Below are positions 1,999 to 41,800 of a stretch of 64,000 nucleotides of DNA, piece after piece (position 1 is the stretch's first letter; each line of letters starts with the position of its first letter). The notes below the pieces were generated by a model. The model was not told the DNA's origin and made no database searches. It worked only from the letters and a program-made list of their open reading frames with translations. This DNA comes from Actinostola sp. cb2023. Its lineage: Eukaryota; Cnidaria; Anthozoa; Actiniaria; Actinostolidae. The position numbers and the translations under genes are program-made. Location: positions 90,001 through 154,000 of the forward strand of contig JAUJYZ010001384.1 of NCBI GenBank assembly GCA_033675265.1, written 5' to 3'.

Positions 1999-2089
1999 TT
2001 ACTTTTATTTTACTAGTTTTACGCCCAAGCTAAAATTAGTCTGAACCGCGACTCAAATATGACAGTTTTGTACGTTCTTCCATTCCTAG

Positions 2090-14200: not shown

Positions 14201-17200
14201 TTTCCATCCTTCTTTCCATCCTTCTTTCCATCCTTCTTTCCATCCTTCTTTCCATCCTTCTATCCATCCTTCTTTCCATCCTTCTTTCCATCCTTCTTTC
14301 CATCCTTCCTATCCTTCTTTCCATCCTTCCTATTCTTCTTTCCATCCTTCCTTCCATCCTTCTTCCATCCTTCCTTCCATCCCTCCTTTCATCCTTCCTT
14401 CCATCCCTCCTTTCATCCTTCTTTCCTGCTTCCCTCTAATATTTTAGTGACTCATATCTTCTTGTGTTTTAGCATATACTAGTTCTAAAAGCCACTTCTC
14501 AGGTATGCTAATCCTATGGATTCTTACTTCCTTTTGCTTTAAAATACAACTGTATCTTCAAAGCTATTTATGAACTGCATATAGATTTTCTATTCTCATT
14601 TTTTTCGTAGTCCACTTTAAATTCACTGCATCACTGTTTCTCTATTCTACAAAGAAGGGTAAGTACGATGGATATATTTATTGGTTTTTCCATGGTTTTC
14701 TATGGAATACCGGCATATATTTACATGTATACATATATTTATATTATTATTATTATTTCACGAAAAAATTATAGTATTTGGTATACAACGAGCCTTTATA
14801 GCCATATTATCCTATACATATTACATCAACAATTAAAATTTACAACGTTTTGATTGGCTAATACAAACTATGAAATACCGCTCTGTATTTCATAGAAAAA
14901 ACTATGTAATACTGCTCTGTATTTCATAGAAATGGTGAGCTCTGGTTGGCTGAGATGTAATATGTATAGGATAATACATGTACATCATATTGTACAGTGT
15001 ACACCTAATTGCATAATCGTTGTTGGGTCGACATCCAAGAAAGCTATAAACAAAAGGAATTCTTAGACATTCTCAAATAACATTGTAACATAAAAAACCG
15101 GGTTCTGGCTGAACTGTTCTTGAATTTTGAAAATCTCGTGAAGATCTAGAAGAACTTCATCTGTGTGAAACATGGCTCATGAGATGATTTCCCAGATATC
15201 CTTGCGGTCATAGCTTCGATGATTTATGATTTTCAACCCGGCAATGATGATGATGATTATTATTATTATTATTATTGTCATACACTAGGTAAAAGAAGCA
15301 CAGAACCAATCAACTGATCAATCGATCAACCAACCTACTACGCAACCAACAAACCAACCGACTGAGCATTACAACATACTACACGTACCTAATACAGACC
15401 AGCTAACCAGTCAACTAACAGATCTGCTATTAGGTCTACCAACTGAATAACTACCCTACTCAATAAAGGTTTCAAAATACCATGTAGTAATACCCTACTC
15501 AATAAAGGTGTTTGTTCAAAATACCATGGAAAAGAATAAAAAGTACAATAACGTGTCTTTAAGGTCTACAGACTAATACATGTAGGTTTTTACATACATT
15601 CTGAAATCAGTAAGTGCTTATAGCTTATTTTTTTATGTTGAAAATCGATTACCTGAATAGATGTTTCAGTGTGTGAAATTGAGTTTCACTTGAAATCGTG
15701 ATATCCCAAAAGGCTTTTGCTGTAAAAATTTTTTCAAGTAATGGAAAAGAAAAAAAAGTTTAACATCTTATAATAAGTTGTATAAAACTTTTTGCCATTA
15801 AAATCAGTCATTTTTAAGCTTTTGTATATTAAATGATGCCTCCTTTGACGTCACTGAATTACCATATACGATTTCAAACCTTGTAACTCGTAAATGCGAA
15901 GCTTGCTATCCCACTATCACTTCATATGTAACGATTTTCAAAATGAAATAAGCTTCATAAGCACTTTAAGACTAAATGTAAGAATGTAAAAAAATTGGAC
16001 AACAGAATTTATAATTCATCATCAATCTTCAACATCATAATTACCATCACTTTCTCATCATCATCATCATCATCATCATACCATCACTTTCTCATCATCA
16101 TCATCAATCATCAACATCATAATTACCATCACTTTCTCATCAGTCATCATCAATCATCAACATCATAATTACCATCTTTCTCATCATGTAGTTGACTGTT
16201 GATATCATCCTATTGTCTATAGGTTGAAGTCAAAACACTGAATCCTCTTCAGGTTTGTATAGTGATCTCTGAAAACACTAAATCCTCTTGAGATTCTTTT
16301 GTCATAGTGAATCTTTGATCACAAATCTACAAATGGACCCCTTCAGTTAGGGTTACTCTGATCAAAATCTCCTGAGATTCTTTGAATTTCAAAGGAGAAT
16401 TTGGATTTTGATCACAAGTCACTTACTCTGTTCACATGGACTCCTTCAGTTAGGGTTACTCTGATCAGGGATTCCTTGAGATTCTTTGAATTTCAAAGGA
16501 GAATTTAGATTTTGATCACAAGTCACTTACACTGTTCTTGCATGAACCCCTTCAGTTAGGGTTACTCTGATCAAAATATAAATTCTCTTTGAGATTCTTT
16601 AAATTTCAAAGGAGAATTTGGGTTTTGATCACAAGTCACTTACTCTGTTCTTGCATGGACTCCTTCAGTTAGGGTTACTCTGATCAAAATATAAATTCTC
16701 CTTGAGATTCTTTGAATTTCAAAGGAGAATTTGGATTTGGATCACAAATCACTTACACTGTTCTTGCATGGACTCCTTCAGTTAGGGGCCGTCGACATAT
16801 TCACCTTTCACCGCTTAACGTCCACTGGACGTTTAGGTCAGACCCCCCCCTTAACGTCCACTTGGAATTTCCTGTTTTTCGTATTGAAAATGTGTGGGAA
16901 TGGTTTTGCATTCGGCAACATGACTCAAAACAAACGGTAGCAAACAACAGTCCAAGGTTCTTTATGCCGCTGGAAAATCCTCAAAACTGCCCCCATTCCA
17001 TGTAGTTCAATTCATTCTCCTTAATAACAATGCTTTTGTATCTCTACATCTTGCCTCTATGTATCTCTATTATCTGTGCAAAATATATTCGGTCAGTCCA
17101 CCGCCATTTTGTCCGACTAATTCCCAATGAATTCCCAATGGATACCACAGGTAATCCAAGCATTCTCGTACCCAAGCCACCGCAAACAGAGCTGGCCGTC

Positions 17201-20200
17201 CATGATTTTCGATAGTTTATATCAGAATCTATTTATATAACACTGAAGTTTGTAAGAACGTACCACCAGTTTGTTCGTTTTATCTTTGCTTTCTTTTTGT
17301 TTTCAACATCAAGTAAAAAAAAATTTTTTTTTTTACAAAAATGCCCCATATTAACGTCCAAATTCCCCCCCGCCTTACCCCCTCCCCCCCTAAACGTCCA
17401 GTGGACGTTAAGCGGGGAAAGGTGAATATGTCGACGGCCCCTTAGGGTTGCTCTGATCAAAATCTAAATTATCCTCGAAATTCTTTGAATTCTATAAGAG
17501 AATTTGGGTTTTGATCACAAGTCACTTGTATAGATTAATTCCTAATTTCATGAACAAAACAATAAAACTTTTCTTATGCAAATGTTTTTATTGTTTTGTT
17601 CTTCAGATTGGGAATTAGCACAAGAGGTCTATTGTGAGAGATGATTGTTTGGGCTTCCTGTGGTTTTACAAAGTCACGTGACTGCACAAATGCTTATTGT
17701 GGGCTCCCTGTGCCCACAGTGTTTTGTTTTGTCTATTATGACTCCGTGAATCTTGAAATAAAATTATTATGAATTACACACAAAAATATATTGTAATTAA
17801 CAGATCTTTAACAGGAGAAATTGAAATAATTGTACAAAAAAATCCCGAAAAATGAGTTAAAAAAATAAACATTTCAAATTGTTTTTCTGAAATAAATTTA
17901 ATTTTGTAAAGAAATTTATATAAATTTTCTTTGTTCCAAATTGTTTTTCTATGTATTATTTTTATATAATCTTATCTTCTGTCTTTTAAAAATAAATTTA
18001 ATATGGAAAACATGTTGACTAAAATAAATGTTAAAAAATATTTTTCCAAAAATGAAAATTAGACTTTTTTTTTTTATAGCTTTTGGGTTTATCTGACGAG
18101 ATTGTTTTTTTCCATTGTTAAATATGGAGTAATGAGTTGTTCACTTCTATTATTGATTTTATAACTTGATGATATCGTTAGTTTTATAACAGACAGCTAC
18201 TCAAGTTATGCAAATAATAGATGATTACTTGAATTACCATATGGTCGTTTTAGTTGGACGTGAAATTCTAATCTCAACTGTCTTGAGCGAAATTCAGACG
18301 ATTTTCGGTGATATTTTAGCAAAAATATCAAACCTGACAGATTCAGAAAGAACTGGGGAAATTCCTGTTGTTTAATCGTCAAAAATTGGGACAGACATTG
18401 GTTGCCTTTGCCTCGAATTCAAGTTTATGTTTTTACAATTCCCGAAGACGGTAAGAAAATTGGGAAATTTTAGACTGAGATAATAGATAGTTTTAATGTA
18501 TACTCAAAGTTGTACTTTACGAGAAGTGGAAGTCTAAGTTACGTATGCTATGCTTAATGAGCCCGAAATTATTACTGCATGTATTGTATTTTCTATTTTT
18601 CTTGAAATTATTTGGGCTAATTGCAATGCAAATAGTACAAGCGATGCACAAAATAAATATTAATCCTTCAATATAACAACCAAAAGGACTATAACTAAGG
18701 ACGGACTTTGTTAAGTTATATCGCAAAACTGTGTTACGTTTTGATGTGTTGTGTACATGTTGTGCTTTTTGATCATGAGTTTTCAAATTTAAAAATAGCA
18801 AAGTAGTTAGCTAATGCATCGAGCACGCTGAATGCATAGCATGGAGAAATACAAAGCCATCATTATCGTTTCTTGCAAGTTGGGAATTTTATTTGGGATT
18901 AAAATTTATTTATTTATTTATTTATATATTTTTTTCATATTTTTTTCTATGAAACAAGACTAAAATCCCGCTCTCGTTTCAAGTTCGTTTCAATTTTACC
19001 AAGAAAAAGATCCCTAATCCTCATTCTATGTTTTCAAATTTACACTTATATAAATTTAAACTCCCCAAGCTTATGTTTTTTGAAACGTTTTTTAAGTATA
19101 CAGTCGAACCTCCCATAAGCGACCACCCGAGTCAAGTTTTGTGGTCGCTTAAGGTGCGGTAATACGAGCAACAAAATCGTGCAACTTGTGGCGCAACATT
19201 TTCAGATTGTTGCGTTGCAAGTTGCAAAGCAATGTTTCTCGTATTACCATCGTTCGTGCAACTTGTCGCGCAACAAATTAAATTTTCGGTCATTTGTTGC
19301 AGGTTGCAAAACTTTGTTGCATGAAGTAGAAAGAGCTTCTACTTTGCGCAACAAAGTTTTGCAACCTGCAACACGAAAATGTGTTGCGCGACAAGTTGCG
19401 CGAACGGTGGTAATACGAGAAGCATTGCTCTGCAACTTGCAACGCAACAATGTTGCGCGACAAGTTGCACGATTTTGTTGCCCGTATTACCGCACCTTTA
19501 CGAGAGGCGGTCGCTTACGAGAGGTTCCGACTATTGTGATTTGACTTGAAACTGATCTTTTGGTATTTTGGAAAACTGGTCGCTTAGAAGAGGTGGTCGC
19601 TTATACGAGAGTGGTCGTAACCGGAGAATCGACTGTATTGAATTTATCTAGAATTGTTTTTTTATTTTTATCTACATGTCCCATGTCTCAGTATTCGACT
19701 CTGATCACGTAACAGACCTTACAAAGAACTCTATCAATGCTCTATCAACTGATTACATGCAGTTTTTGTTAGGACTGAGTCTTACTTTCAAAATATATTC
19801 TTTAAAATTCCAATAGTCATCGGTAGATTGATATCGTTGAATTTTCGCAGTATGAAACGAGTTTATTCCATCGATTGATAATTTGCCAGCGTATATTTTT
19901 ATATCATATATTATTAATATCCGACCATTTCAACCACAATTAATGAAGACAGAGTACCTCGAATAGCTCTCTAAATTCGAAAAGCAATACTAAGGAAAAC
20001 TCCTTAGATTTTTCTAACAAATGTGTATATTTGTCTTGTTTTGAGGGTAAACTTTTGTTTTCCATAAACTATTTGTGTTTGCACTGAAATGGTATCCGTT
20101 ACATTTGGAATCTTTGCATGTTAGATTGTAGTTTATTAATTATTTAACCGCAGACGCGACGCTAAGATGTTTTACGTAGTTTTCACTGGCATGAAAATTT

Positions 20201-23200
20201 CTTTAGTTTTTCGCTTACAATGGAAAGGTCTTTCACCAGCATTGAAATATTTTTTCGTGGTCGCTGACAGTGAAATGGTTTTACGTAGTTGTTACTGACA
20301 TTGAAATGGTTTTACGTAGTCGCTGACATTGAAATGGTTTTACGTAGTTGTAGCTGACATTGAAATGGTTTTACGTAGTTGTTACGTACATTGAAATGGT
20401 TTTACGTAGTTGTCGCTGACATTGAAATGGTTTTACGCAGTTGTTATTGGCATTGAAATGGTTTTACGTACTAGTTGTTGCTGACATTGAAATGGTTTTA
20501 CGTAGTTGTTATTGGCATTGAAATGGATTTACGTAGTCGCTGACATTGAAATGGTTTTACTTTCGCTGACATTGAAATGGTTTTACGTAGTTGTCGCTGA
20601 CATTGAAATGGTTTTTTTTCTTCTACGAACACTGAAATGGTTTTCCATCAAAAAATTAATTTGTTAATATAAACATCAGCTGACGCAATTCCTGGTACAA
20701 TATTACGTAAGCTACGTGGGATTCCTCTCAGTAAAGCAATACAAAAGAGTAGAATTATCCTTGTGTTTTATTGTTCTTTAATTAATCTCTGTTCTGTTAT
20801 TCACCATTTCAAAGTTGTTATTATTATTATGATTACAAAGCATACGTACACATTCAAAGTGATTTATTCTCAATCAATACATCATACGAGCATTTTAGTG
20901 TTATCTATGGCTTCATTGAGGGTTTATCATGTAATTTCAAAACTCATAGGACAAAAATATGATTATCATAGCTGGAAAGAGCTCGTTGAAATTAGTAAAA
21001 ATGTGAAGTTTGAAAAAGATCGCTTCACAAATTGCGAAGATATGAATTTTCAAAATCGAAAATTTACATGAAAACCTTTGGAAATTTACGCTGGTATACA
21101 GCTGTATAGGCAACTCTTGCCTACCAACAAAGGTTTTCATACAAAATTTCAATGTTTGAAAATTCATATCTTCGCAATTTGTGAAGCGATCTTTTCCAAT
21201 CTTCACATTTTTACTAATTTCAACGAGCTCTTTCCAGTTATGATAATCATATTTTTGTCCTATGAGTTTTGAAATTACAATGTCGTCCACTAATAATATA
21301 GAGACGCAAGCATAAGCGCAAGCATAAAAATGGAAATATTTTTACTTTTATGCGCTTATGCTTATGTTTATCTCTTTTCACTGAGAAATAGCCTGCTTTC
21401 AGGCTCCCCATGTAAGAGAGCCTGAAAGCAGGCTAACTGAGAAATGACGTCTTTGGTTTTTATGAGCGACGCAACATGAGCGCAAAAATCGAAAATTTAT
21501 TTTTCTTTCAATTCATTACTCCTGTTCATTATTCGACGCAACGCAAACATAAGCACAAGAAATGAAGAAAATTGTAAAAAGGGGCAAAATCATTGTCTAG
21601 TTCGTAAGTCGGCTTATTGTCTAATAATTTGATTCTCTGGTTACGAATATTCGCTTTGTTCAGAGCTAATGGGGAAAAAAGTATAATAATAATGTAAAAC
21701 TGATTACTTAATGGCGTCCCGTTGAAGCACGGGAGCACGGCAGACTGCTGGTTGTTCACGATTTCTTTTGTCGAGTTTGATAGCCATCTATTTTCAGCGG
21801 GAGAATTATAATAACAAAATGGCATAAACGATATCAACTGAAATCGACAACAAGCAGCAGTTTGCCGTGCTCCCTTGGTTGAAGACAGCGCGCGTGCGCT
21901 CTCCGTCGTGTGCTTGCGTGTGCGACTTACGTCACAAACACTTTCACAGCTTGCTGAGAGAGTTTGAGTTCAGTATTAACGTTGTTTTGTCTGGTTTTGT
22001 TTAGGAGTAACGCTAGAGCATTTGGATCAGCCAAGTACAAGGTAAAACCCTTATACCAAACCTTGTTATTAAGTCTATGTCTTTACTATCGAATGTTTCT
22101 TACATTGGCTGGAATTTTTACGGGCTTAATTTCGAGGAGGGTTTGTAATTGGAGTAACTATAATCGGAATTTTACGGTATTTTTACGCAGTTCGGTGTTT
22201 GAAAGTTTGGTTGTTTATTTGTTTGTTTGGTCGTTTGTTTGTTTGGTTAGTTGGAAGGGTGGGTGGTTGTTTATTTGTTTGTTCGGTCGTTTGTTTGTTT
22301 GTTTGGTTGGTTAGTTGGAAGGGTTGGTGGTTGTTTATTTGTTTGTTCGGTCGTTTGTTTGTTTGGTTGGTTAGTTGGTTAGTTGGTTAGTTGGAAGGGT
22401 TGGTGGTTGTTTATTTGTTTGTTCGGTCGTTTGTTTGGTTAGTTGGTTAGTTGGAAGGGTGGGTGGTTGTTTATTGTTTGTTTGTTCGGTCGGTCGGTCG
22501 TTTGTTTGTTTGGTTGGTTGGTTAGTTGGAAGGGTGGGTGGTTGTTTTGTTTGTTTGTTCGGTCGGTCGTTTGTTTGTTTGTTTGTTGTGGTTGGTTAGT
22601 TGGAAGGGTGGGTGGTTGTTTATTTGTTTGTTCGGTCATTTGTTTCGTTTGGTTTTTGGTTAGTTGGAAGGGTGGGTGGTTGTTTATTTGTTTGTTCGGT
22701 CGTTTGTTTGTTTGGTTGGTTTAGTTTGTTTGTTGGAAGGGTGGGTGGTTGTTTGTTTGTTTGTTCGTTCGTTTGTTTGTTTGGTTTGGTTAGTTGGAAG
22801 GGTGGGTGGTTGTTTATTTGTTTGTTCGGTCATTTGTTTGTTTGGTTGGTTAGTTGGTTAGTTGGTTAGTTGGAAGGGTGGGTGGTTGTTTATTTGTTTG
22901 TTCGGTCGTTTGTTTGTTTGGTTGGTTAGTTGGTTAGTTGGAAGGGTGGGTGGTTGTTTATTTGTTTGTTCGGTCGTTTGTTTGTTTGGTTGGGTTGGTT
23001 AGTTGGAAGGGTGGGTGGTTGTTTTATTTGTTTGTTCGGTCATTTGTTTGTTTGGTTGGTTAGTTGGTTAGTTGGAAGGGTGGGTGGTTGTTTGTTTGTT
23101 TGTTTGTTCGGTCGTTTGTTTGTTTGGTTGGTTAGTTGGTTAGTTGGAAGGGTGGGGGTTGGGTGGTTGTTTATTTGTTGGTTTTCGGTGGGTTATTTGT

Positions 23201-23817
23201 CGTTTGTTTGTTTGGTTGGTTGGTTGGTTAGTTGGAAGGGTGGGTGGTTGTTTATTTGTTTGTTCGGTCATTTGTTTGTTTGGTTGGTTAGTTGGTTAGT
23301 TGGAAGGGTGGGTGGTTGTTTATTTGTTTGTTCGGTCGTTTGTTTGTTTGGTTGTTAGTTTTGTTTAGTTGGAAGGTGGTGGTTGTTTATTTGTTGTTTT
23401 GTTTGTTGTTTGTTTTTTTGTTTGTTTGAAGGGTTGGTGGTTGGTTTATTTGTTTGTTCGGTCGTTGTGGATTAATTGGTTAGTTGGAAGGGTGGGTGGT
23501 TGTTTATTTGTTTGTTCGGTCATTTGTTTGTTTGTTTGTTTGGTTAGTTGGAAGGGTGGGTGGTTGTTTATTTATTTGTTTGTTCGGTCGTTTGTTTGTT
23601 TGTTTGTTTGGTTAGTTGGAAGGGTTGGTGGTTGTTTATTTGTTTGTTCGGTCGTTTGTTTGTTTGTTTGATTAATTGGTTAGTTGGAAGGGTGGGTGGT
23701 TGTTTATTTGTTTGTAGTTGGTTAGTGCGTGTCCTACTATGCGAGAGGTGCCCGGTTCGATTCTTCATGACCTCACATCCTTGTTTCGACTTCTTTCTAA
23801 TCCGTGTAGCTCATTGC

Positions 23818-23848
<31 letters not shown>

Positions 23849-26800
23849 TAGAAAGAGGGGAGTAAAGTGCGCACCGTCGGCCTCAGGTTTGTCAGTTGAA
23901 TTACTGTTACGAGTTACCGACGTTAAATAAGGTAGCTTTAAATACCCGTAAAACGGTCGGAGCACTGATAGAAAGAGGGGAGTAAAGTGCGCACCGTCGG
24001 CCTCAGGTTTGTCAGTTGAATTACTGTTACGAGTTACCGACGTTAAATAAGGTTGCTTTAATTACCCGTAAAACGGAGCACTGATAGAAAGAGGGGAGTA
24101 AAGTGCGCACCGTCGGCCTCAGGTTTGTCAGTTGAATTTACGAGTTACCGACGTTAAATAAAGTTGCTTTACTTTTACTTTGGTCGTACGTAGCTGTCGT
24201 ACGTAAGTTTGGCAAATACAAAGACAAATTTTGTGAAGCGGCATATATTCACTACGAAGCTCAAGAAAACTCGCTTCGAAATACTGCATTTTCTATTCTG
24301 TTCGACCATTGTTTAAATTTATATTAAGTACCAAATATGAAAAACAAAATTATCAAATTCTTCCAGAGAAAATGTTTTAAATTATCGTGAAAAATCTTCA
24401 TTTTTTGGCCTAAAAGTTGGAATTACTGGAAGGTATTTTTGCGAAGAATAAGGAATAATTTACGACGTAACTCATTTATTATTGAACCACGACAATTATG
24501 TGAACGTCCTTTTCGATTTGATGTCGTTGGGAGGCTGGTATAACTAATTGAACGATTGGTGATGTTATCGCTGTGTCTAGCTTTGTCCTCTCAAACTTCG
24601 TTCGCTCGTTACTGCCCATGTTTGAAAACAACGATGGAATCTTGACCAGTCGGGGAAGGACTTTTCGTCTTGCGTTGAATTGTTATTTATTGATTGCTTT
24701 TTCTCTCTTTTTGATGTTAGTAATTAGGGGTTTTGGAATTCAGCTTGTCAGAGATGGTATTGGGGTAGATTTTTATTTGATATCAAAACATTGTTTTTAC
24801 TTGATTTATGGAAGTATTCACGGGTTGTAAGAAACTTTCTTATATATTGTATTTATATTACTTCTTTCCTTTCTTTCTTCCTTCTTTCCTTCCTTCCTTC
24901 CTTCCTTCCTTCCTTCCTTCCTTCCTTCCTTCCTTCCTTCCTTCCTTCCTTCCTTCCTTCCTTCCTTCCTTCCTTCCTTCCTTCCTTCCTTCCTTCCTTC
25001 CTTCCTTCCTTCCTTCCTTCCTTCCTTCCTTCCTTCCTTCCTTCCTTCATTCTTCCTTCCTTACTTCTTCCTTCCTTCCTTCCTTCCTTCCTTTCTTTCC
25101 CTCATTCCTTCCTTCCTTCCTTCCTTCCTTCTTTTCTCATTGCTTCTTTCCTTCCTTCATTCTTTCCCTCATTACTTCTTTCCTTCCTTCTTCCTTTCCT
25201 ACATTCTTTCCCTCATTGCTTCTTTCCTTCCTTCCTTCATTCTTTCTCTCATTGCTTCTTTCCTTCCTTCATTCTTTCCCTCATTACTTCTTTCCTTCCT
25301 TCTTCCTTTCCTACATTCTTTCCCTCATTGCTTCTTTCTTCCTTCCTTCTTCTTCTTCTTTCTCTCATTGCTTCTTTCCTTCCTTCTTCCTTTCCTACAT
25401 TCTTTCCCTCATTGCTTCTTTCCTTCCTTCCTTCATTCTTTCTCTCATTGCTTCTTTCCTTCCTTCTTCCTTTCCTACATTCTTTCCCTCATTGCTTCTT
25501 TCTTTCCTTCCTTCCTTCATTCTTTCTCTCATTGCTTCTTTCCTTCTTTCTTCCTTTCCTACATTCTTTCCCTCATTACTTCTTTCCTTCCTTCCTTCCT
25601 TCATTCATTCTTTCCCTCATTACTTCTTTCCTTCCTTCCTTCCTTCATTCATTCTTTCCCTCATTACTTCTTTCCTTCCTTCCTTCCTTCCTTCATTCAT
25701 TCTTTCCCTGGTTGCTTCTTTGCTTACTTACTTCCTCCATCTCTTCATTTAGCTTGGCTTCATTATTCCTTTCAAACAAGCATTTTTCAGTATATAACAT
25801 CCTTATCATCTAATCGAACTGAAGGGTAATGTAAAGCTATTTGTCTATACAATAATCTTAATATGACTTTATCAGCATTTTTATCCGAATAAAATCATAG
25901 ACTAAAAATATATTGATGTCTTCAAAACCTTCTAGAACTCGAGGCTAATATATTTGCACTTTGTTTTCTGTAGTGGGATTGATATCTGTGATGATAATGT
26001 GTTTTCCAGTGAAGAATTGCTTATTAAAAAATCTTAAAATGAAACGGAAAACGTTTTTATCGTGCAAATATTATTTTGATTTTTTTTAAAGTTTTCCTTC
26101 ATTCTTAATTTAAATATAATAATTTCAATTCATTCCTATTATGAACTCCATTTCTTATTTCAAATTCATCCATAGACATGTGTTTTATCACGGCTTGGTG
26201 ATATATTGAATAACTTTAAACTATTTTGCTTTGGTTGAATCTTTTCTTTGATATTCAAACAAGCTGTAGAAACATTTTTTGTTTTTGTTTGTTTGTTTGT
26301 TTTTTGAAAAAAATTACTATAAAATTCAATCTCAATCTGATCGAATTCGCGCGTGAGAGTTCGATGTTTTGAAAATCAAGTTCACCACTTTCCCAACATC
26401 GAAAAATTGCGTAGGCTCAGTATTCTTAAACAACTGAAGTTCCCTTTTTATAACAATGCACAACTTCAAATATCTGGAGGCAAAACTCCCAAGTTATGAC
26501 GTCATAATTAGCTGTAAAATGACGTCAATGACACAAATTATTCCTTCTGAAATAAAACTCGATAAATATTTCATCTACTGAGCTGAAGCGTGTTGTGAAG
26601 GAATTGGAGAAGAGTCCAAGTATTCAGCTATTTTTCGCCCCAAATTACCAAGTCCATAAGACCCTGCGAAGCTAATCAAACGAAAGAGATTGATCTTGAA
26701 TCGTCGAGGCAAATTCACTGAATTTCGCTCAAAGGTAAAGCAAAATTCGCAATATTTGAATACATTTACTACATACTACAAATCCAGGAATTTCATTCCT

Positions 26801-29800
26801 TTGGCGTTCATTCCCTTACGTATTTTCTTGGTGAGTTTTAGGGGTGTTCGGTGCTCATTTTCTTTGCCTTATTTCGTGCTAATGTTGCTAGAAATTTCGA
26901 TAAAACTGATTCCTTTGGGTTTGAATGTTTATCTGAATTTGATTAATTTCAAATGGACATAGCTGTGTTTACATGTCCAGTGGGTCACAAAGAATTGCGT
27001 TTGCATTGTGTATCTTAAATTATTCAACAAAATACTACTTCTTCACTTCAGAATGCCTCGGGACGCCCCCAAGAAATCAAAACACGAAACCAGTAGTGTT
27101 TTGAGCGGTAATTTACTCTAAAAACCGGAAAATACTCGAAGTATTTGATTTGCATAACTGGTCGTGTTGAACGTGGACTTCTACCTTTAGAGATTGATGC
27201 CTGGTAGTGTTTTATTTTAGCCGTGTTTGTGGTGGGGAATATTCTCACTGCTAGAGTGTTGATTGTTCCTGGTGTTGAAGTAATGATTGTGTCTGATAGT
27301 ACACATTTATTTAAGTATAATATTTATTATTTTATGCAATTTCATTTCCGTTTTATTTTCTGTATTGTTTAAAATTGTTTTCATTTCTTTTATTGAAATA
27401 TAGTATTAATTTTATGTTGATTTTATTAGTATTGAATTATATTTAATATTATTTATATTTTATTTTATTTTAGATTATTTTTATTTTATTTTAGATTATT
27501 TATATTCTATTCTATTTTAGATTATTTCTATTTTATTTTATTTTAGATTATTTATATTTTATTTTATTTTAGATTATTTTTATTTTATTTTATTTTAGAT
27601 TATTTGGTATTTTATTTTATTTTAGATTATTTTTTATTTTATTTTATTTTAGATTATTGGTATTTTATTTTATTTTAGATTATTTTTATTTTATTTTAGA
27701 ATATTTATTTTATTTTATTTTAGATTATTTCTATATTATTTTAGATATTTTATTTTATTTTAGATTATTTCTATTTTATTTTAGAATATTTCTATTTTTA
27801 TTTTAGAATATTTCTATTTTATTTTAGATTATTTCTATTTTATATTAGATTATTTCTATTTTATTTTAGATTATTTCTATTTTATTTTATTCTAGATTAT
27901 TTCTATTTTATTTTAGATTATTTCTATTTTATTTTAGATTATTTCTATTTTATTTTAGAATATTTCTATTTTATTTTAGATATAATTTCTATTTTTGATT
28001 ATTTCTAATTTTAGATTATTTCTATTTTGATTTTAGATTATTTCTATTTGATTTTAGATTATTTCTATTTGATTTTAGATTATTTCTATTTGATTTTAGA
28101 TTATTTCTATTTGATTTTAGATTATTTCTATTTGATTTTAGATTATTTCTATTTGATTTTAGATTTCTATTTGATTTTAGATTATTTCTATTTGATTTTA
28201 GATTATTTCAATTTATTTTAGATTATTTCAATTTTATTTTAGATTATTTCTATTTTATTTTAGATTTTTCTATTTATTTTAGAATATTTCTAATTTATTT
28301 TAGATTATTTCTTTTATTTTAGATTATATTTTGATTTTAGAATATTTATATTTGATTTTAGATTATTTATATTTTGATTTTAGAATATTTATATTTGATT
28401 TTAGATTATTTATATTTTGATTTTAGAATATTTATATTTGATTTTAGAATATTTATATTTGATTTTAGATTATTTATATTTTGATTTTAGAATATTTATA
28501 TTTGATTTTAGATTATTTATATTTTGATTTTAGAATATTTATATTTGATTTTAGAATATTTATATTTGATTTTATTCTAGGTTATTTTATTTTATTTTAG
28601 ATTATTCATGTTTTATTTTAGTTATTTAACAAATCAGGCGTGCATCATTTTTGTTTAGAACATAGAAAGCCATCTTCTATTTATTTTATAATATAAATAG
28701 TATTTCACTGGAAAAGCCCAACATTCTGAAGTTGTTGTAAACGTTCGAGTTAATTAATATTCAACATGAGTTTATGTAAATTAGATAATGACATTCCAGC
28801 GTGCAGCGCGCGAACTTCAACTAAAATTTTATTCAAAAACGCAACAGAATCCTCAACTTTCTTGCCATTTTGTTCGCCATTCTTGCTCTTTTTTTGATCA
28901 AAAATGCATAGTTTCGATGTATCGCAATGTTTTCAACACCAAAGTCGAGGAAACGTTTGATTTTGAGATTGTTTTAGCTATTCAGTTTGAACCTAAGCTC
29001 ACAGCCGTGCACCATAAAATAAAAGTTTGCAATTTGATTGGTAGCTAAGCGTGCACCATACAAAATGGTGCACGCCTAGCATCCAATGAAATCGCGCGTT
29101 CTTAGGATGTTACCAATGTTTATATTTTAAATTATTTATATTGTATTTTAAAACTATCTGATTCTTTATTTTAAATTATGCGTCTATTTTCCATTGTATT
29201 TTATTTTATTCTCTGTTTTAAAACTGACTTATCTTAATTAATTCTCTTTTATCCCATTTTCATTCATTCATTTTCTCATTCATTCATTCATTTATTCAAC
29301 GTTGTCTTTGTATTCCTCCAGACCTCCTAACCCCGATACCAGTCAACCCAGTCCTGATATGAGACACTTCAGATCTCATCGAAACCCAGGCACGCCACGT
29401 TCACAGAGGAACGCAGACAAGACTTCAACGCAGAACCCCAATGACGACGAAGTTAGTTGTTGTGAGAAAGCTTTACAGACATTGGACGAAGCGTTAGGTA
29501 AAAACGTGTAGCCATAGTCTTTGGACGTCATTACTATACAGAAATGTAGTTACCTTGTTGAGTCCTCATCATCATCACCATCATCATCACCGTTATCATT
29601 GTTATCATCACCACCATCATCATCACCGTTATCATCATCATCACCGTTATCATCATCATTATCATCGTCATCATTGTTATCATCAACACCATCATCATCA
29701 CCGTTATCATCATCATCACCGTTATCATCATCATTACCATCATCATCATTGTTATCATCACCAGCATCATCATCACCGTTATCATCATCATCACCGTTAT

Positions 29801-32800
29801 CATCACCGTTATCACCATCATCATCATTATCATCGTCATCATCACCACCATCATCATCATCACCACTGTTAGAGTCGTTTTCATATGAGTTGGAAAGTTA
29901 CGGTACCGTGCCGTATTGAAAGAGTTTGATTTGAATCTGAATGTATCTGCACGCTTTTTGATTGGTTCAGAAAGGAAGCCATTTGAGTGTCACGGTATCG
30001 TAGGTTTCCCGCTCATATGAAATGACTCTATGATCATCATCACCATCATCATCACCACCACCATCATCATCATTGTCTCTATTACTAGAATCACCATCAT
30101 CACCACTATCATCATCATCATTGTCTGTATTATTATAATCATCATCATCATCATCATTGTCTCTATTAGAATCACCATCATCACGACTATCATCATCATC
30201 ATTGTCTGTATTATTATAATCATCATCACCATCATCGTTGTCTCTATTAGAATCACCATCATCACGACTATCATCATCATCATTGTCTGTATTATTATAA
30301 TCATCATCACCATCGTCGTTGTCTCTAATGCTAGAATCACATTACCATTACCACCACTGTCATTGTTCACCATTATCATCACCATCACCAGCGTTGTCCA
30401 TCGCCACAATCATCATCATTGTAGAAACTACCACAAATGAATGTGTATTTTATGGACTTTTAATACTCTCTTTGCTCGACTCCATTCAGTCCGTCCCTCG
30501 TACAGCCTAGTGCGCATGTCTGTCACGCGCTCTTCTAGTTAATGTAACGCTACGACATTACATCTCTTCCTTCCTCTAGAGAAAATGTTCATGTCCTTAT
30601 CTATATAACGTATGAAACTCAAAACAGTTAGTAAATAACAATGACTGCATGTGACATTGTATATTGTTCAAGTAGAATAGTCATTCAAGTATTCAGGAGC
30701 TCTCCGGTTTCTTGATGATCTTCGCAAGGGAGGTGGTGTCCCTGGATCCTGTGGATCAGCATTTGACTGTGCTTGACTTGATGTCTCATCAGTCTCGTTG
30801 TTTGGGTGGAGTTCCTCCTCCTCATCACTTAACGTGAGTGGTACTTGTGTGCTAGAAGGTATTTTCTTGAAGAAGGATGTGTTTCTGGTCACAGTGTACT
30901 CTGCGTTGTGAGCTGTAATCATGCTTCCTTTCTTTTCTTTTACTTCCAATGGTTCAGGTTTAAACGGTGTTGACAGCTTGTTCTTCTTTGGTTGTTTGAC
31001 TAGTACTTTGTCACCAACTTTGAGGTCTGACGCTCTGGCATGGTTATGTCTGTCTGCATACTCTTTCATCTGTTCTTTCCTCTTGGCGTCATTTTGCCTG
31101 ACCTCTGGTGATGCTTGATCCTGTTGTAGTCGAGGCATTGTAGATTTCAACTTTCTTCCATTCAACAATTCTGAAGGTGATTTTCCTGTAGTACTATGGG
31201 GTGTTGCTCTGTATTGTCGCAGAAAGGTGAAAAGCTCTTGTCTCCAGCTTTTGTGCTCTATGACAGCAGTCCTAATGGCTTTCTCTAGGGTTCGCATCAG
31301 TCTTTCTGCCTCGCCATTTGCTCTAGGCCATATTGGTGTTATCTTACGATGGTTAAAGCCAAGATGAGTAGCAAACATTTGAAAGTTCTCACTGTTGAAA
31401 GGTGGCCCATTGTCGGTTCTGACTACATCTGGAATTCCTTGTCTGGCAAAAATGCTGTCTAGATGTGGAATTACTGCCTTTGCTGAGGTCGACCTCAAGA
31501 TTTCAACCTCTGGAAATCTGCTAAAATCATCTACGACCACTAGTAGGTAATCCCCATTGGGAAAGGGACCACAGAAGTCTATGGACAGTTCTTGCCATGG
31601 TCCTTGTGGTAGAGGGGACATCTTTAAAGGCTCACATGCTGGGCTTGAGTTATGATTTGCTGCTTGACATGGTAGACATTGCTTAATCATCTCTTCAACC
31701 ATTCCGTCTATTCCTGGGAACCAAACCGAGTCTCGCAGAAGGCGCTTTGTCTTGACTATGCCTTGATGACCACTATGGGCAAGCATAATCATTCGTTGAC
31801 GTAGGGTTTCAGGAACTATTATGCGAGTACCTCTCAAAATCACTCCATTTGCCACAGTTAGCTCTTGTTTGACTTGCTGATATTCACAGACATCTCTTCC
31901 AGCTTCATACCATCTTTGAGTGGCTATCACTTTTGCCAGGTTTTGCAGTGTATGATCTTTTGCTGTTGCATCCTGAATCTCCTGGAGAGTAACTGCATTG
32001 GGTACAGCGTTTGCAGTAACGAAATTGACATAACTATCAACTCTTGACAAATGATTAGGACTGGTGGAATGTTTTGGATCTGGATGCCGGCTCATATAAT
32101 CAGCGGGATTATCTGCCCCTGGTCTGTAGACCACTGTGATCTTGTACGGTTGTAAGCGCAGCTGTAATCTCTCAAGTCTTGCAGTTGCTTTGCAGGTTGA
32201 CTTGTTGAAGATTGTTTCAAGTGGTTTATGATCAGTGATGGCTTGGAAGGATGATCCATGAAGATATAAATGGAAGTGTTCAGTTCCCCAGACTACTGCC
32301 AGCGCTTCTCTTTCCGTCTGACTGTAGCGGCTTTCACAATCGGTGAGGGAGCGGCTTGCATATGCTACAACGTTTCTTCCTTGGTCATGTGTCACTTGTG
32401 CTAGAATAGCCCCAAGTCCAACTGGGCTGGCATCAACAATCAGTTCAGTTTTGAGCAGTGGATCGAAGTACTTCATTACTTCAGGAGCTGCCATGCTAGC
32501 TTTGAGGGAAGCAAACGCATGTTGTTGATCTGGTCCCCACACCCACTTTGCATCCTTGTGTGTGAGTTGACGAATGGGGGCAGAGATGGATGCAAAGTCC
32601 TTGATGAAACGTGCTAGGTATTGTGCAAAACCTAAGAAGCTGCGTGCTTCGTTGGCATTCTTTGGGGGGCTTGAGTTAATCAACGATGATATTTTCTTGT
32701 CATCTGCGCTGATGCCTTCTGCAGAAAAGTGATGGCCAAAGAAGTCAATGGATGACTGGTTAAACAAACACTTGTCTGGGTTTGCAGTTAGATTGTTATC

Positions 32801-35800
32801 TCTCATTCTCTGGAGGACAGCTCGAAGTGCATTGTCGTGATCATCTTGTTGCTTGCCAAAGACTATTATGTCATCAGAGATGTTTCTTGCACCTTGAATT
32901 CCTTGTACTGCTTCCTCTATGGCTTTCTGAAAGATTTCTGATGCTGAGTTGATCCCAAAACTCAGACGCTTATAACGAAACAGACCAAGATGAGTAGCAA
33001 AAGTAGTAATGTTCCTGGAGTCTGCGTCTAATTCCAACTGGTGGTAGCCTTGGTTTAAATCTATCTTGCTGAAAACAGTTGACCCATTAAGATCAACGAT
33101 TAGATCTTCGACTGTGGGCACTGGGTGTCGTTCTCGTTCTATGGCTTCGTTGGCAGCTCTCATGTCGACACATATACGTATTCCTACTTTCTTGGGGACT
33201 ATCACTATGGGTGAGACCCAAGGAGTAGGGCCTTCAGCTCTTTCAATTATGTCGAGGTCTTGTAGATTCTTGAGCTCAGCTTCAACTTGGTCGCGCATGT
33301 GAAATGGTACTCTTCGATGTCTCTGAGCAAGTGGCTTGACGCTACTATCAATGTGTAATTTTGCAGTCTTGTCTTTCATCTTCCCCAGTCCCTTGAAACA
33401 GTCACTGTATTCATCCATGATGCTTGTTCCTTTGGGTGTTGATAGGGTGTTCACAATGTGCAGCAGTCTGAGGTCAGTGGCCGTTTTGTAGCCCAGAAGA
33501 TTTCCATCCGCTCCATCCACAACATAGAATTGAGCAATATTTGATGTATTGGTGACTGCTGAGATGACATTGGCTTCGAACTTCCCCAGTACTGGTAAAG
33601 GCTTGACTGCTTGGTAACTATATATCTTCTTTGAAGTAGGTGACAAGGGGATGTTCAACTTGTTGTAGGTATGTGAGTCAATGACATTTACACCAGCTCC
33701 AGAGTCAATAAGACACTTGACTGTCTTGTTTCCAATGGTGACTTCACTAACAGGATGTCCTTTGTCTTGGAGAGAGTGCAGTGTAACATGATAGGTGTAT
33801 TCTTCATCAGTGGAATCATCAGACTGATCATCCGATTCTTTCTCCTTAGTTGCGTTGACTCTCTTGCTAGTTGATTTACTTTTGCACACTTTGGCAAAAT
33901 GACCCACCTTCTGACAGTTCCGGCAGGTCTCATGCAGAGCTGGACAGGGACGACCTTGGTGAGGGTAGTTTCCTCCGCATCTGTAGCACTGCTTTTGATC
34001 CGTCTTTGTCCTCACGTTTCGTGGTTTGACCATCTGTACTTCCGTTGCTTTGCACAGTTTTTCGTGTTCCTCGATGCCTTTAGCTTGTCGTTCAGACATT
34101 TCAAAACCTCTGCCATAGTCGAGAAGAGCTTTGAGATTCATATCTTCTCGCAGGGCTCTACGTCGTAGCCGTGTTGACGAGCAGGATAGAATGATATGAG
34201 ATTTAATTTCTTCTTCCTCATTAGTGAACTCGCAAGTTTGGGTCAGGCGTCGTAGTCGTGTGTAGTAGGAATCTAGCGATTCACCTGAATCTTGTGTAGC
34301 ATTTCTGAACATGTAAACTTCGTAGGTTTTGTTTACTTTTGGTTGAAAATAAACATTTAGTGCAGCGACTGCAGCTTTGTAATCCTTATCTTCTCCTTGA
34401 TCTGGTAGCGTTTCAAAGATGTCGCTGACCTCTTCGCCTGCTGAGTATAATAATAGTGCTCGCTTTCGTGTAGGATCTTTGATATCATGTGCAGCGAGAT
34501 ACATCTCAAAGCGTTTAAACCATTTCTTCCAGCGAGGACCAATGGAAGTATTATCCTCGTGAACAGCAAATGTAGGGAATGGCGGTAAGACATTCGCCAT
34601 CTTGTTGAGTAGCGTGGCACGTGGCGTAGAAGAAAATGCCGTTAATCTTGACTGTTATTCTTTGAATGTGGCTGTAAATTGTCTCGAAGACGTAGTTGTA
34701 TCTTGTTCGTTGATCCTCGTCGCCAGTTGTAGAAACTACCACAAATGAATGTGTATTTTATGGACTTTTAATACTCTCTTTGCTCGACTCCATTCAGTCC
34801 GTCCCTCGTACAGCCTAGTGCGCATGTCTGTCACGCGCTCTTCTAGTTAATGTAACGCTACGACATTACAATCATCACGACCATCTCATCTCCAAATTTG
34901 TCTTGTTTATCCTTTGTTAGTCTTCTCTTGAATATTACTTGCGATCATAATCTATGTGTAAATTTTGCCTGAAATCTTATCAACTTGTTTTTTTTACAGT
35001 TAACGCGCCAAAAAGTGATGAAGATCTTGACAAACAAGTATACAGCACAGGGGAGGAACCCGAGAACCAGAGTGTCGAAGAACACAAAAGTGTAGTGTTA
35101 CACTTGATATCACAGTTAAAACTAGGCGTGGACTTAACCAAGGTAGAAAACTAGGCATGGACTTAACCAAGGTAGAAAACTAGGCATGGACTTAACCAAG
35201 GTAGAAAACTAGGCATGGACTTAACCAAGGTAGAAAACTAGGCATGGACTTAACCAAGGTAGAAAACTAGGCATGGACTTAACCAAGGTAGAAAACTAGA
35301 CATGGACTTAACCAAGGTAGAAAACTAGGCATGGACTTAACCAAGGTAGAAAACTAGGCATGGACTTAACCAAGGTAGAAAACTAGGCATGGACTTAACC
35401 AAGGTAGAAAACTAGGCATGGACTTAACCAAGGTAGAAAACTAGGCATGGACTTAACCAAGGTAGAAAACTAGGCATGGACTTAACCAAGGTAGAAAACT
35501 AGGCATGGACTTAACCAAGGTAGAAAACTAGGCATGGACTTAACCAAGGTAGAAAACTAGGCATGGACTTAACCAAGGTAGAAAACTAGGCATGGACTTA
35601 ACCAAGGTAGAAAACTAGGCATGGACTTAACCAAGGTAGAAAACTAGGCATGGACTTAACCAAGGTAGAAAACTAGGCATGGACTTAACCAAGGTAGAAA
35701 ACTAGGCATGGACTTAACCAAGGTAGAAAACTAGGCATGGACTTAACCAAGGTAGAAAACTAGGCATGGACTTAACCAAGGTAGAAAACTAGGCATGGAC

Positions 35801-38800
35801 TTAACCAAGGTAGAAAACTAGGCATGGACTTAACCAAGGTAGAAAACTAGGCATGGACTTAACCAAGGTAGAAAACTAGGCATGGACTTAACCAAGGTAG
35901 AAAACTAGGCATGGACTTAACCAAGGTAGAAAACTAGGCATGGACTTAACCAAGGTAGAAAACTAGGCATGGACTTACCAAGGTAGAAAACTAGGCATGG
36001 ACTTAACCAAGGTAGAAAACTAGGCATGGACTTAACCAAGGTAGAAAACTAGGCATGGACTTAACCAAGGTAGAAAACTAGGCATGGACTTAACCAAGGT
36101 AGAAAACTAGGCTATGGACTTAACCAAGGTAACCAAGGTAGAAAACTAGGCATGGACTTAACCAAGGTAGAAAACTAGGCATGGACTTAACCAAGGTAGA
36201 AAACTAGGCATGGACTTAACCAAGGTAGAAAAAAACTAGGCATGGACTTAACCAAGGTAGAAAACTAGGCATGGACTTAACCAAGGTAGAAAACTAGGCA
36301 TGGACTTAACCAAGGTAGAAAACTAGGCATGGACTTAACCAAGGTAGAAAACTAGGCATGGACTTAACCAAGGTAGAAAACTAGGCATGGACTTAACCAA
36401 GGTAGAAAACTAGGCATGGACTTAACCAAGGTAGAAAACTAGGCATGGACTTAACCAAGGTAGAAAACTAGACATGGACTTAACCAAGGTAGAAAACTAG
36501 GCATGGACTTAACCAAGGTAGAAAACTAGGCACTTTGATAAAAAAAATAAGGAATGGTATTTTTGTGTAATTCTAGGTCGTCCTTCCGACCTTCATATTA
36601 GAACCCCGATCATTACTAGAGATGTATGCGGATTTCTTTGCTCATCCAGATCTTTTTATAAGGTAGGTTGTTGATGATAATAGTAATGCTGGTGATGATG
36701 ATGATAATAATAATGGACGTTCTTTTCGGACTGCATATGAAAGGCGCCCATGGCAGCCGAGCAACTTACAGCTTGATGGTGTTGGAGATGATCATGATCA
36801 TGGTGATGTTATTGTTGTTGACGATGATGATGATGACTGATCATGGAAGGTGGTGGTAGTAGGTGGTGGTGGGTAATGGTGGTTGTGGGTGGTGGTGTGT
36901 AGTGGTGGTAGGTGGTTGTGGGTGGTGGTAGTAGGTGGTGGTAGTGGTTGTGGGTGGTGGTAGTAGGTGGTGGTGGGTAGTAGTGGTTGTGGGTGGTGGT
37001 AGTAGGTGGTGGTGTGTAGTGGTGGTAGGTGGTAGTGGTTGTGGGTGGTGGTAGTAGGTGGTGGTGTGTAGTAGTGGTAGGTGATAGTGGTTGTGGGTGG
37101 TGGTAGTAGGTGGTTGTGGGTGGTGGTAGTAGTGGTTGTGGGTGGTGGTAGTAGGTGGTGGTGTGTAGTGGTGGTAGGTGGTTGTGGGTGGTGGTAGTAG
37201 GTGGTGGTGGGTAGTGGTGGGTGGTGGTGGTAGGTGGTGGTGGGTAGTGGTGGTAGGTGGTTGTGGGTGGTGGTAGTAGGTGGTGGTGGGTAATGGTGGT
37301 AGTGGTTGTGGGTGGTGGTAGTAGTAGGTGGTGGTGGTAGTGGTGGTGGTTGTGGGTGGTGGTGTGTAGTAGTGGTAGGTGGTTGTGGGTGGTGGTAGTA
37401 GGTGGTGGTGGTAGTGGTTGTGGGTGGTGGGTGGTAGTAGGTGGTGGTGTGTAGTGGTGGTTGTGGGTGGTGGTAGTAGGTGGGGTGGGTAGTGGTGGTA
37501 GGTGGTGGTGGGTAGTGGTGGTAGGTGGTGGTGGGTAGTGGTGGTAGGTGGTAGGTGGTTGTGGGTGGTGGTAGTAGGTGGTGGTGGGTAATGGTGGTAG
37601 TGGTTGTGGGTGGTGGTAGTAGGTGGTGGTGTGTAGTGGTGGTAGGTGGTTGTGGGTGGCGGTAGTAGGTGGTGGTGTGTAGTGGTGGTAGAGGTAGTGG
37701 TTGTGGGTGGTGGTAGTAGGTGGTGGTGTGTAGTGGTGGTAGGTGGTTGTGGGTGGTGGGTAATGGTGGTTGTGGGTGGTGGTGTGTAGTGGTGGTAGGT
37801 GGTTGTGGGTGGTAGTAGTAGGTGGTAGGTGGATGTGGGTGGTGGTAGTAGGTGGTGGTGGGTAATGGTTGTGGGTGGTGGTAGTAGGTGGTGGTGTGTA
37901 GTGGTGGTAGTGGTTGTGAGTGGTGGTAGTAGGTGGTGGTGGGTAGAGGTGGTTGTGGGTGGTGGTAGTAGGTGGTAGTGGTTGGTGGTAGTAGGTGGTG
38001 GTGATGTGTAGTGGTGGTGGTGGTAGTAGGTGGTGGTGGGTAGTGGTGGTAGTAGGTAGTGTAGTGGTTGTGTACTTAACCCTTTCGTTTTTCTAGTATA
38101 CCCGATGGTCTAACTGCAGAAGACAGAATGCTGTCGGTTCTTAGATTTTTCTTAACGTCCTTCCACGTTGGAAGAAAAGTAAGTTTCGTTGTCTTTTCAC
38201 AACCATTACTTCATAATCAATGTCTTAAAATAGTGAATTTACTTGTAGGGTGCACTAGCGAAAAAGCCCTACAACCCTATGTCTTACAATAGTGAATTTA
38301 CTTGTAGGGTGCACTAGCGAAAAAGCCCTACAACCCTATGTCTTACAATAGTGAATTTACTTGTAGGGTGCACTAGCGAAAAAGCCCTACAACCCTATGT
38401 CTTACAATAGTGAATTTACTTGTAGGGTGCACTAGCGAAAAAGCCCTACAACCCTATGTCTTACAACAGTGAATTTACTTGTAGGGTGCACTAGCGAAAA
38501 AGCCCTACAACCCTATGTCTTACAATAGTGAATTTACTTGTAGGGTGCACTAGCGAAAAAGCCCTACAACCCTATGTCTTACAATAGTGAATTTACTTGT
38601 AGGGTGCACTAGCGAAAAAGCCCTACAACCCTATGTCTTACAATAGTGAATTTACTTGTAGGGTGCACTAGCGAAAAAGCCCTATAATCCTATACTAGGA
38701 GAAACGTTTAACTGTTCCTTCGACGTGAGAGAAGAGTGCAGTACAGGCATTGAGAGAAACCCTCTGAATGCAGCTAATGATGTGTCGTCTAGTGAAGACA

Positions 38801-41800
38801 CTAAAGAAGTTAGGTTCTATGCTGAACAAATATCGCATCATCCACCAGGTGAGATCATCTATCAGCATCAATAGGCTATCATTATCATCATTATCAATAG
38901 GCTATCATCATCATCAGCATCATCATCTTAAATAGGCTATCATTATTATCAGCATTATTATCAATAGGCTATCATTATCAGCATCATTATCATCATCATC
39001 ATCATAATAATAATAATAATATCCATTGGCTATCATTATTAATCAGCATCATCTTAAATAGGCTATCATCATCATTATCATCAATAGATTATCATTATTA
39101 TCATCATCTTAAATAGGCTATCATCATAATCATCATCAATAGATTATCATTATTATCATCATCATCATCATCAATAGATTATCATTATTATTATCAGCAT
39201 CATTATTATCAATAGATTATCATTATTATTATCATCATCATCATCATCATCATCATCAATAGATTATCATTATTATTATCAGCATCATCATCAATAGATT
39301 ATCATTATTATTATCATCATCATCAATAGATTATCATTATTATTATCATCACCATCTCCTATACCGTAATCATCATCATCATACAATACAAAACATGAGG
39401 GAATTTTGTGTGCGCATGCGTCACCACAGTCGGATGAACACAAGAAGTACACGAGACAAGTTGTTTGGTTCTAATATTTTACAGTTTGTGCGGACGTTGG
39501 TGGAGGCTAAAAGGGATGCCTCAAAAGGACCTCATTAAATATTCAATTTCACGACGTTACGGATAATGTACGACAATCCCCCGAGCTCATTTCCCGAAGA
39601 ATCAAATTCAATATGGCGGAACACATGGTGAACTCAAAATGCACAATCGCTGGCTCTGAGTGTACTGAAAGTTGGTTTTATTTATTATGATGGGGTGATG
39701 AGTATCATCGATTATCACTGTATGATAATTTTTATCGGAGAATATTTGTTATCAATGTTCAGAATCACGTATAGGGAGGGTCACAACCTACGATTTCAAT
39801 CGTATTGATTCCTCTCCAGTAAACTCTATACTATCCATGTCTACACAAGAAAAAAACAACTTTTCCTCAACTGAAAAAGTTCGCCCTTGTGTCAGTTCCC
39901 AAACAATTGCCTCCAAAAGGGATTTTTTTAAACGGAAACTCTTCAAAGACCCTGCTCGTATACACCGTGTCTAGACAGCGTGCGGTATTGTTTTTGTGTC
40001 AATTTCTCAACTTGGCAATTACAAAGAGCATTTCATTTCGATTTTTCTCGGTAGTAAATAAAAATCATGCCATGACATCCTGAGAGAAACAAATAAATGT
40101 GGCACTCAGTACGTCGTGGCACCCTGAAGGCTGAACCTAAAAGTAACTTTTACGTCTTACTGCAATTTCACGCCAAAACGGATCTTGCAAGTCACCTGCA
40201 GAACACTGACAGCCGATTCAAGTATACCTCACCAGGGATACAGGCCGGGACGAGCTCATTCGGTATCTGCGCTCTTATGATGTTCTTCAACACTTTTCGG
40301 TTGCTCGCTTAAAGCTGAAAATGCCGCCCAGGAACGCGCCTGTAATATCTCTTTTGTTTACCAAAATATTTGCTATAAAACTGAGAAAATCGAGTCGTTG
40401 TGATGGTTTCGAACTGCATTAGAGCTCGATATGTTTCTTCTATAGCCAAACTAGTGAGTCGTTCAATTTTTCAAGTAGTCCATAGCGAATCCATGAGCAC
40501 AGGGATTTAGTTATTTTAAAATTTAAAATATTCCTGCTCTTTCCCGCATTATTATTACCAAAACATTAACGTCCCTGGCTCAATATAATGCAGTTCTCGA
40601 AATTCCCGTCGATCAGTCGATAAAAAAAACGAAACCCGAGAACTCTTTCGGAGAACGTCGACTGACGTCATGGAAATGAATATTTAATAAGGTCCTTTTG
40701 AGGCATCCCTTTTAGCCTCCACCGGACGTATTACGAGAATTGTATCTACTGAACACAAAAAAATGATGCCTATTAATATATTTCATTATTGCTATAATCG
40801 ATTTTTGTACTTCCGAAATTACGCTTTGATGGTTAAGCGCATGCTCGTGCAAATTTCCCTCCTGTTACAATACAATACAATAGTTTACTAAGAAATCCAA
40901 TAGATGGTTTTTCATCGTTTTTCACCCTTTTTCATCATCATAATTATAATTAATATGATTACATGTAGAGTTAATATTGTTTGTGTTTTAGTGTCTGGGT
41001 TTTACGCTGAATGTCCGCACAAGAAAATATGTTTCAATGCCCATATATGGACAAAGTCTAAATTCTACGGGATGTCTATTGGAGTAAACAATATCGGTGA
41101 AGGTGAGCAGCATTTCCCATCACTTTTGACGAGCGGGTTCCGAAGTTTGTTCGGAAGTTCCGAAGTTTGTTCGGAAGTTCCGAAGTTTGTTCGGAAGTTC
41201 GGAAGTTCGTTCGGAACTTCCCAACGAACCGCTTCGGAACTTCCGAATGAACTTCGGAACTTCCGAATGAACTTCGGAACTTCCGAATGAACTTCGGAAC
41301 TTCCGAACGAATGAACTTCGGAACCCGCTCGGAAAAAGTAACTTAACATAACAGCAGCAACCACATAAGTATCACCTCGATACACAATAATAACTAGATA
41401 TTTTGTTTTCCCATAAACATCATCCACTGTCACACATCCCTTCTTACCGATGTTTTTCTTCCAGCCATCATATCGTTGTTAGACAAAGGTGAAGATTATC
41501 ATTTTACATTTCCGAACGCTTATTGCAGGTAGGTGTTATTGATGATGATTGATGGTGATGATGACGATAATAATTACTGATGATAATGACTGCTGATGAT
41601 GATGGTGATGATGAGATGATGATGGTGGTACTGAATGGTAATGGTGATTGATGATGGTGATAATGAAGAGATGATGATGGTGATGATGACTGATGATGGC
41701 GATGCCGATGATGGTGGTGATAATGATGAGATGGTGATGACGATGATGAGGTAATGATGATGGTGGTAATGGTGATTGATGATGGTGATAATGAAGAGAT

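Follow-up and report, generated by a model that had tools for sequence, protein, structure and literature searches.

How can a gene go on making its protein when the end of one of its exons, splice donor included, has been repeated dozens of times in a row? The question is raised by an ORP11-like gene of the oxysterol-binding protein family in the sea anemone Actinostola sp. cb2023 (order Actiniaria). The gene lies in a stretch of 64,000 nucleotides (assembly GCA_033675265.1, contig JAUJYZ010001384.1, positions 90,001 to 154,000 of the forward strand), hereafter called the window and numbered from its first letter. The repeated donor had been noticed in an earlier inspection of the letters, which we call the sequence-only reading. 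In our analysis, three splice junctions of this gene and one of a second gene in the window are caught up in tandem duplications. We consider it fairly probable that such splice-junction minisatellites are mostly tolerated by-products of tandem duplication across exon-intron boundaries, and that the copy touching the exon keeps the gene functional.

The donor array is confirmed as real in this assembly and borders a conserved exon of the ORP11-like gene with an open reading frame. Tandem Repeats Finder (TRF) calls it with a period of 29, 48.4 copies and 97% matches. By direct parse it contains 49 CCAAG/GTA donors (the slash marks the exon end), with +1 bases from 35143 to 36518, and 48 of the 49 read CCAAG/GTAGAA. 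The sequence-only reading had spoken of a donor amplified about 48 times; the amplification stands, while the number of GT donors is 49. It had correctly recognized that the unit joins the end of exon 14 to the first bases of the intron, and that each repeat rebuilds the donor in its native exonic context. Donor-to-donor intervals are 29 bp long in 44 of 48 cases, and 42 of the 48 are one identical sequence; the remaining six comprise two G-to-A units, single units of 28, 30 and 32 bp, and a 9-bp stub. The string CCAAGGTAGAA occurs 48 times in the window, every time inside the array, and three unit probes found no match outside the array on either strand of the whole window.

The consequences of donor choice were followed with a script that spliced each donor to the next exon, using the sequence from exon E12 onward with the remaining gene spliced normally. 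Donor 1 yields the full-length product, and all the others (48/48, donors 2-49) run into VEN and a stop, as the sequence-only reading had foreseen. The residue number it gave for the cut, about 453, is too high: the cut falls nearer to residue 420, with the equivalent Nematostella lysine at position 415 of 772, a count that is approximate because at least two exons are missing from the model. A coding role for the array could be ruled out by inspection, since TAG occurs twice in each unit and 29 bp is not divisible by three. RNA structure was likewise ruled out as the selector of donor 1, whose predicted accessibility is 0.54 versus a mean of 0.56 for the rest.

Two exons downstream in the same gene, an acceptor has been multiplied in a comparable way. 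Script splicing to acceptors 1-7 leads to an early stop, and acceptor 8 gives the full product; the resulting introns range from 70 nt (copy 1) up to 483 nt (copy 8). Copies 2-8 carry a branch-like CTTAC motif whose A lies 21 nt from the end of the intron; in copy 1 the motif is altered. The acceptor of the adjoining exon, ORD4, has the fewest pyrimidines of the 19 acceptors scored (8 of 17 places). Two changes distinguish the exon copy from the other copies of the array, both of them synonymous.

The same kind of event is seen on a smaller scale at two further junctions. The exon encoding the PH domain ends in TGGCACAG followed by GTAAGC, and the motif recurs once 32 nt downstream; from this second donor the frame is shifted and the product ends in the next exon. 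In the second gene, the last 150 nt of an exon have been copied with one mismatch, together with the donor and seven bases of the intron, and an in-frame TAA stands directly behind the first copy of the donor. The gene encodes a stretch that is 100% identical to QZH41_018985, a public model from Actinostola sp. cb2023 (187-aa query, 99% covered); this model carries a 30-residue repeat built from the duplicated exon end. Because the relative in Exaiptasia has the duplicated sequence only once, the repeat in QZH41_018985 is probably spurious. The acceptor array and both doubled donors go beyond what the sequence-only reading had noticed. Elsewhere in the window, a 318-aa open frame at 54532-55485 (plus strand) shows weak similarity to this minus-strand gene at 62 kb and has no Pfam match.

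Exons of the ORP gene were mapped by tblastn with ORP11-like relatives from Actinia tenebrosa and Nematostella vectensis, and the splice sites were refined by reading. The assembled pieces (20 exons) contain no internal stop or frameshift, GT and AG are present at the mapped introns, and ORD1 joins the next exon in frame. This mapping missed at least two small exons, in the intervals 8276-9312 and 14658-29322. Identity to the A. tenebrosa protein is 71% over 235 aligned aa for the N-terminal and PH piece, and 83% over 451 aligned aa for the ORD piece. As in ORP11, a PH domain (PF00169, 3.8e-14) is followed by an Oxysterol_BP domain (PF01237, 5e-75) in Pfam; the anemone protein differs from ORP11 by ordinary divergence and one V for M, and the peculiarity of the gene sits in its introns. 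Its placement with ORP11 as against ORP9 or ORP10 goes by name: among the 120 homologues listed, the top anthozoan matches that bear a name are ORP11 or ORP11-like, two are named ORP10, and others are simply "oxysterol-binding protein". Two protein searches, limited to candidates between 0.55 and 1.75 times as long as the query, returned no near-identical Actinostola ORP among the 120 matches listed in either; the query of the first was a provisional model in which an intron stretch was read as an exon before the PH-domain exon.

Table 1. Coordinates of the repeated splice junctions and of the associated exons and genes in the window
Feature	Position	Strand	Evidence
ORP11-like gene, 20 exons mapped	8172..43817	+	tblastn, in-frame joins, Pfam
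32-bp duplication of PH-domain exon end and donor; donors after 12490 and 12522	12483..12547	+	TRF, splicing script
Exon ORD1 (exon 14 of the sequence-only reading), 143 nt, ends KLGVDLTK at productive donor	35000..35142	+	tblastn, in-frame join
29-bp minisatellite; unit of last 25 nt of ORD1 and GTAG; 49 CCAAG/GT donors	35118..36532	+	TRF, direct parse
Donor 1, sole donor for full-length product; 1434-nt intron	35143..35144	+	splicing script
Donor 49, closest to the acceptor; intron of 59 nt, product with VEN-stop	36518..36519	+	splicing script
Exon ORD2	36577..36662	+	tblastn, splicing script
Exon ORD3	38097..38178	+	tblastn, splicing script
59-bp minisatellite, 8 copies; unit of 29 nt of intron end (...TTTACTTGTAG) and first 30 nt of exon	38220..38693	+	TRF, sequence, acceptor parse
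Exon ORD4, 187 nt; full-length product solely via 8th acceptor (AG ends 38661)	38662..38848	+	splicing script
Second gene, 177-bp duplication of exon end and donor AAACG/GTAAGTG; GT begins 62130 and 61953	61947..62280	-	TRF, sequence comparison

Several other features surround these junctions. The intron upstream of ORD1 houses a long terminal repeat (LTR) retrotransposon at 30419-34870, antisense to the ORP gene. Its direct terminal repeats, 144 bp each, are identical, and it has a single open frame of 1310 aa; it is probably a recent insertion. The intron at 36663-38096, mostly filled by a 1.2-kb GGT-rich array, is also exactly 1434 nt long, apparently by coincidence. Tandem units of about 120 bp at 1770-1992 and 23818-24171, 22 kb apart, are very similar by eye, and units of 40-55 bp at 13266-13415, 43925-44108 and 49846-50629 look related by eye. 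Upstream of the ORP gene, Pfam recognizes a thyroglobulin type-1 repeat and also a Kunitz domain in reading frames at 2017-4658 (plus strand).

The sequence-only reading had spoken of about 48 identical 5' splice sites; the copy in the exon is not identical to the units. That copy encodes Val (GTG) at a site where ATG (Met) stands in 47 of the 48 intervals, the 9-bp stub lacking the site. Methionine occupies the position in 120/120 homologues of the first search; among all homologues fetched (n=241) it does so in 204/204 that could be scored, 37 having no match to the scoring pattern. Since homologues and units agree on methionine, the units would seem to hold the older codon and the change in the exon copy to be the more recent one, barring an assembly error at this base.

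Is the position of these repeats at splice junctions more than chance? Tandem repeats make up 33% of the ORP gene span versus 65 of 2198 mapped exon bases. Upon random placement of whole arrays, the expected number of covered junctions was 9.9 with 30 arrays, 8.8 with the 28 arrays of period at least 10, and 4.9 with 20 cleaner arrays; 3 of 38 were seen, and by this measure there is no excess of arrays at junctions. We further scored local copies, defined as at least 17 of 24 nt around a point matching within 600 nt. They were found at 3/38 junctions, as compared with 241/600 random intron points (all 60 nt or more away from any mapped exon) and 1/367 exon-interior points, 33 of 400 exon draws having been dropped because the exons were too short to score (Fisher 2e-5 and 0.003). 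Such duplication is frequent in introns, turns up now and then at junctions and is almost missing from exon interiors, the pattern expected if it is tolerated.

We suggest that these arrays arose as follows. In a stretch of genome with rampant tandem duplication, a first duplication would have happened to span an exon-intron boundary. Every copy tested, apart from the one that touches the exon, leads to a stop or frameshift; because the reading frame is conserved and open, enough transcripts presumably use the exon-touching copies, and the gene would thus stay functional. Exon definition would be the simplest means: splice sites would be paired across the 143-nt or 187-nt exon and the copies deeper in the intron ignored, while any choice of other copies would produce truncated or decayed mRNA. 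Selection would keep arrays out of exon interiors and leave their growth inside the intron free. Such growth would move the productive site away from its partner, which at the far end of the array is 59 nt away versus 1434 nt (donor) and 70 versus 483 nt (acceptor). The original introns might accordingly have measured about 59 and 70 nt, provided that no intron sequence was lost. According to the available text of a study based on a database and minigenes, cross-exon proximity is favoured between near-equal sites when introns are long, and cross-intron proximity below about 250 nt (PMC9225289); carried over to anemones by analogy, this would fit exon definition.

Several observations weigh against this proposal. 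We infer the use of exon-touching copies from the open, conserved frame, and apart from position and one upstream base we found nothing that distinguishes donor 1 from the other donors. By U1 pairing (-6.5 kcal/mol) the array donor ranks 13th of the 19 donors of the gene, weaker than 12 of the other 18. By analogy, far-end introns as short as 59 and 70 nt are just what intron definition would favour. The same study reports, as far as its available text goes, that before correction for strength most events in each of the four architecture classes favoured the downstream donor, which is also favoured where a long upstream intron is combined with a short downstream one, as donor 49 would create (PMC9225289). 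Its rule therefore points both ways here, because the outcome depends on which intron is recognized first. The valine in the exon copy could reflect relaxed constraint or an assembly error. As for the placement tests, the shortfall is slight for the 20 cleaner arrays, with 3 seen versus 4.9 expected. When founder units were placed instead, 3 of 28 crossed a junction versus a mean of 0.99 (P 0.074), and for the 9 cleanest long-unit arrays the mean was 0.49 (P 0.009), with cut-offs picked afterwards. As the outcome of the three tests is mixed, we claim no bias of duplications towards junctions, although some bias may exist.

The tolerated by-product has to be compared with a regulatory array, the idea of the sequence-only reading, in which many equal sites would divert transcripts to decay or to a truncated ORP that retains the PH domain and loses nearly all of the ORD, with repeat number setting the ratio. 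Suppression of the array by a first-donor rule, which that reading offered as an alternative, is a possibility as well. All 48 extra donors and 7 extra acceptors do give early stops, a cut at LTK retains only residues 94-106 of the Oxysterol_BP match (94-449 in the assembled piece), and the far-end introns are short enough to be favoured under intron definition. There is even a parallel in human IFI6, where two downstream repeat units are used as donors and three mRNA species result (available text of PMC4526556). Yet local copies are rarer at junctions than at intron points, and the remaining cases concern other junctions, one of them in another gene, with no common regulatory logic visible among them; we regard regulation as unlikely. 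A length-dependent switch appears quite improbable. Short arrays would leave a short intron, intron definition and a truncated product; from about 8 donor or 5 acceptor units upward the productive intron would exceed about 250 nt and exon definition would rescue the full protein. The dose of ORP would then depend on repeat number, and a junction, once duplicated, would come under selection for a long array.

Hybrid correction and polishing steps can smooth or mis-count tandem arrays, and the size of the arrays might thus be an artefact, a real short duplication having been inflated or homogenized. The genome paper on the hydrothermal-vent Actinostola, which we infer describes this assembly, lists in its available text LoRDEC-corrected PacBio reads, DBG2OLC, Racon, Pilon and Redundans (PMC10803348). 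The reads came from a 20-kb PacBio library (112 Gb; same source) and were in principle long enough to span 1.4 kb. Moreover, six variant intervals persist in the donor array, and the four junction duplications of the window, which differ in their units, would hardly all be artefacts. We thus hold an artefact of size to be rather unlikely, while copy number and uniformity are uncertain owing to the hybrid assembly. The claim of the sequence-only reading that homogeneity points to recent expansion is unsupported as stated, given that assembly steps may smooth arrays and that the exon copy has already diverged. The gene prediction methods, in the available part of the genome paper, mention no RNA data (PMC10803348), and the annotation is therefore no evidence on splicing. 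Finally, the ORP gene might be heading for a pseudogene, its splice sites lost among decoys. The valine, the LTR retrotransposon in an upstream intron and the lack of a near-identical Actinostola protein among the matches listed would suit such decay. Against it stand the intact 20-exon pieces with their GT and AG sites, the well-conserved ORD piece, and the synonymous nature of both exon-copy changes in the acceptor array; decay is very improbable.

The repeat number of minisatellites generally varies between individuals, and one minisatellite with multiple splice donors, in human IFI6 (6-16, G1P3), was reportedly described by Turri, Cuin and Porter in 1995. The anemone array shares its defining trait, a minisatellite that spans an exon end and carries a donor in each unit. 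IFI6 differs in that two of its downstream units are used, giving three mRNA species (PMC4526556, available text), whereas the extra donors of the anemone would, if used, lead to a stop. The anemone gene has 49 copies and an acceptor array in addition. When an intron is gained by duplication, both splice sites of the new intron derive from the duplicated segment. Here, the acceptor at 36576, which serves the intron of the donor array, and the donor at 38179, which serves that of the acceptor array, lie outside the repeats. The likeness to intron gain by tandem genomic duplication is that duplication copies splice signals; that process makes a new intron, as its available descriptions state (PMC4974935, PMC2891723), whereas the anemone arrays appear to have enlarged existing introns, because the partner splice site of each lies outside the repeat. 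The work of Carranza, Shenasa and Hertel (2022) resembles our case in its competing near-equal sites at different distances, with a switch point at about 250 nt; its available text concerns a database of alternative sites and two-donor minigenes (PMC9225289), as opposed to a locus found in nature, where 49 donors and 8 acceptors compete. In the literature searched, where subscription journals were poorly covered and listings partial, we found no description of splice-junction minisatellites besides IFI6. Nor did we find a description of such a copy number, of an acceptor counterpart, of recurrence within a single gene, or of a stop behind every extra site, as in the two large arrays.

Taken together, the arrays are probably neutral, and their value lies mainly in a natural experiment on splice-site choice. 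The 49 donors in near-identical context, 8 nearly identical acceptors and 2 donors at three junctions of one gene allow 784 pairings, and a single one of them should give the full protein, because each array, tested with the rest spliced normally, has one productive copy. Annotators are cautioned by the locus that duplicated exon ends can enter gene models, as in QZH41_018985. Because distance is almost the sole variable along each array, the gene could reveal the rule by which equal splice sites are chosen in an animal outside Bilateria.

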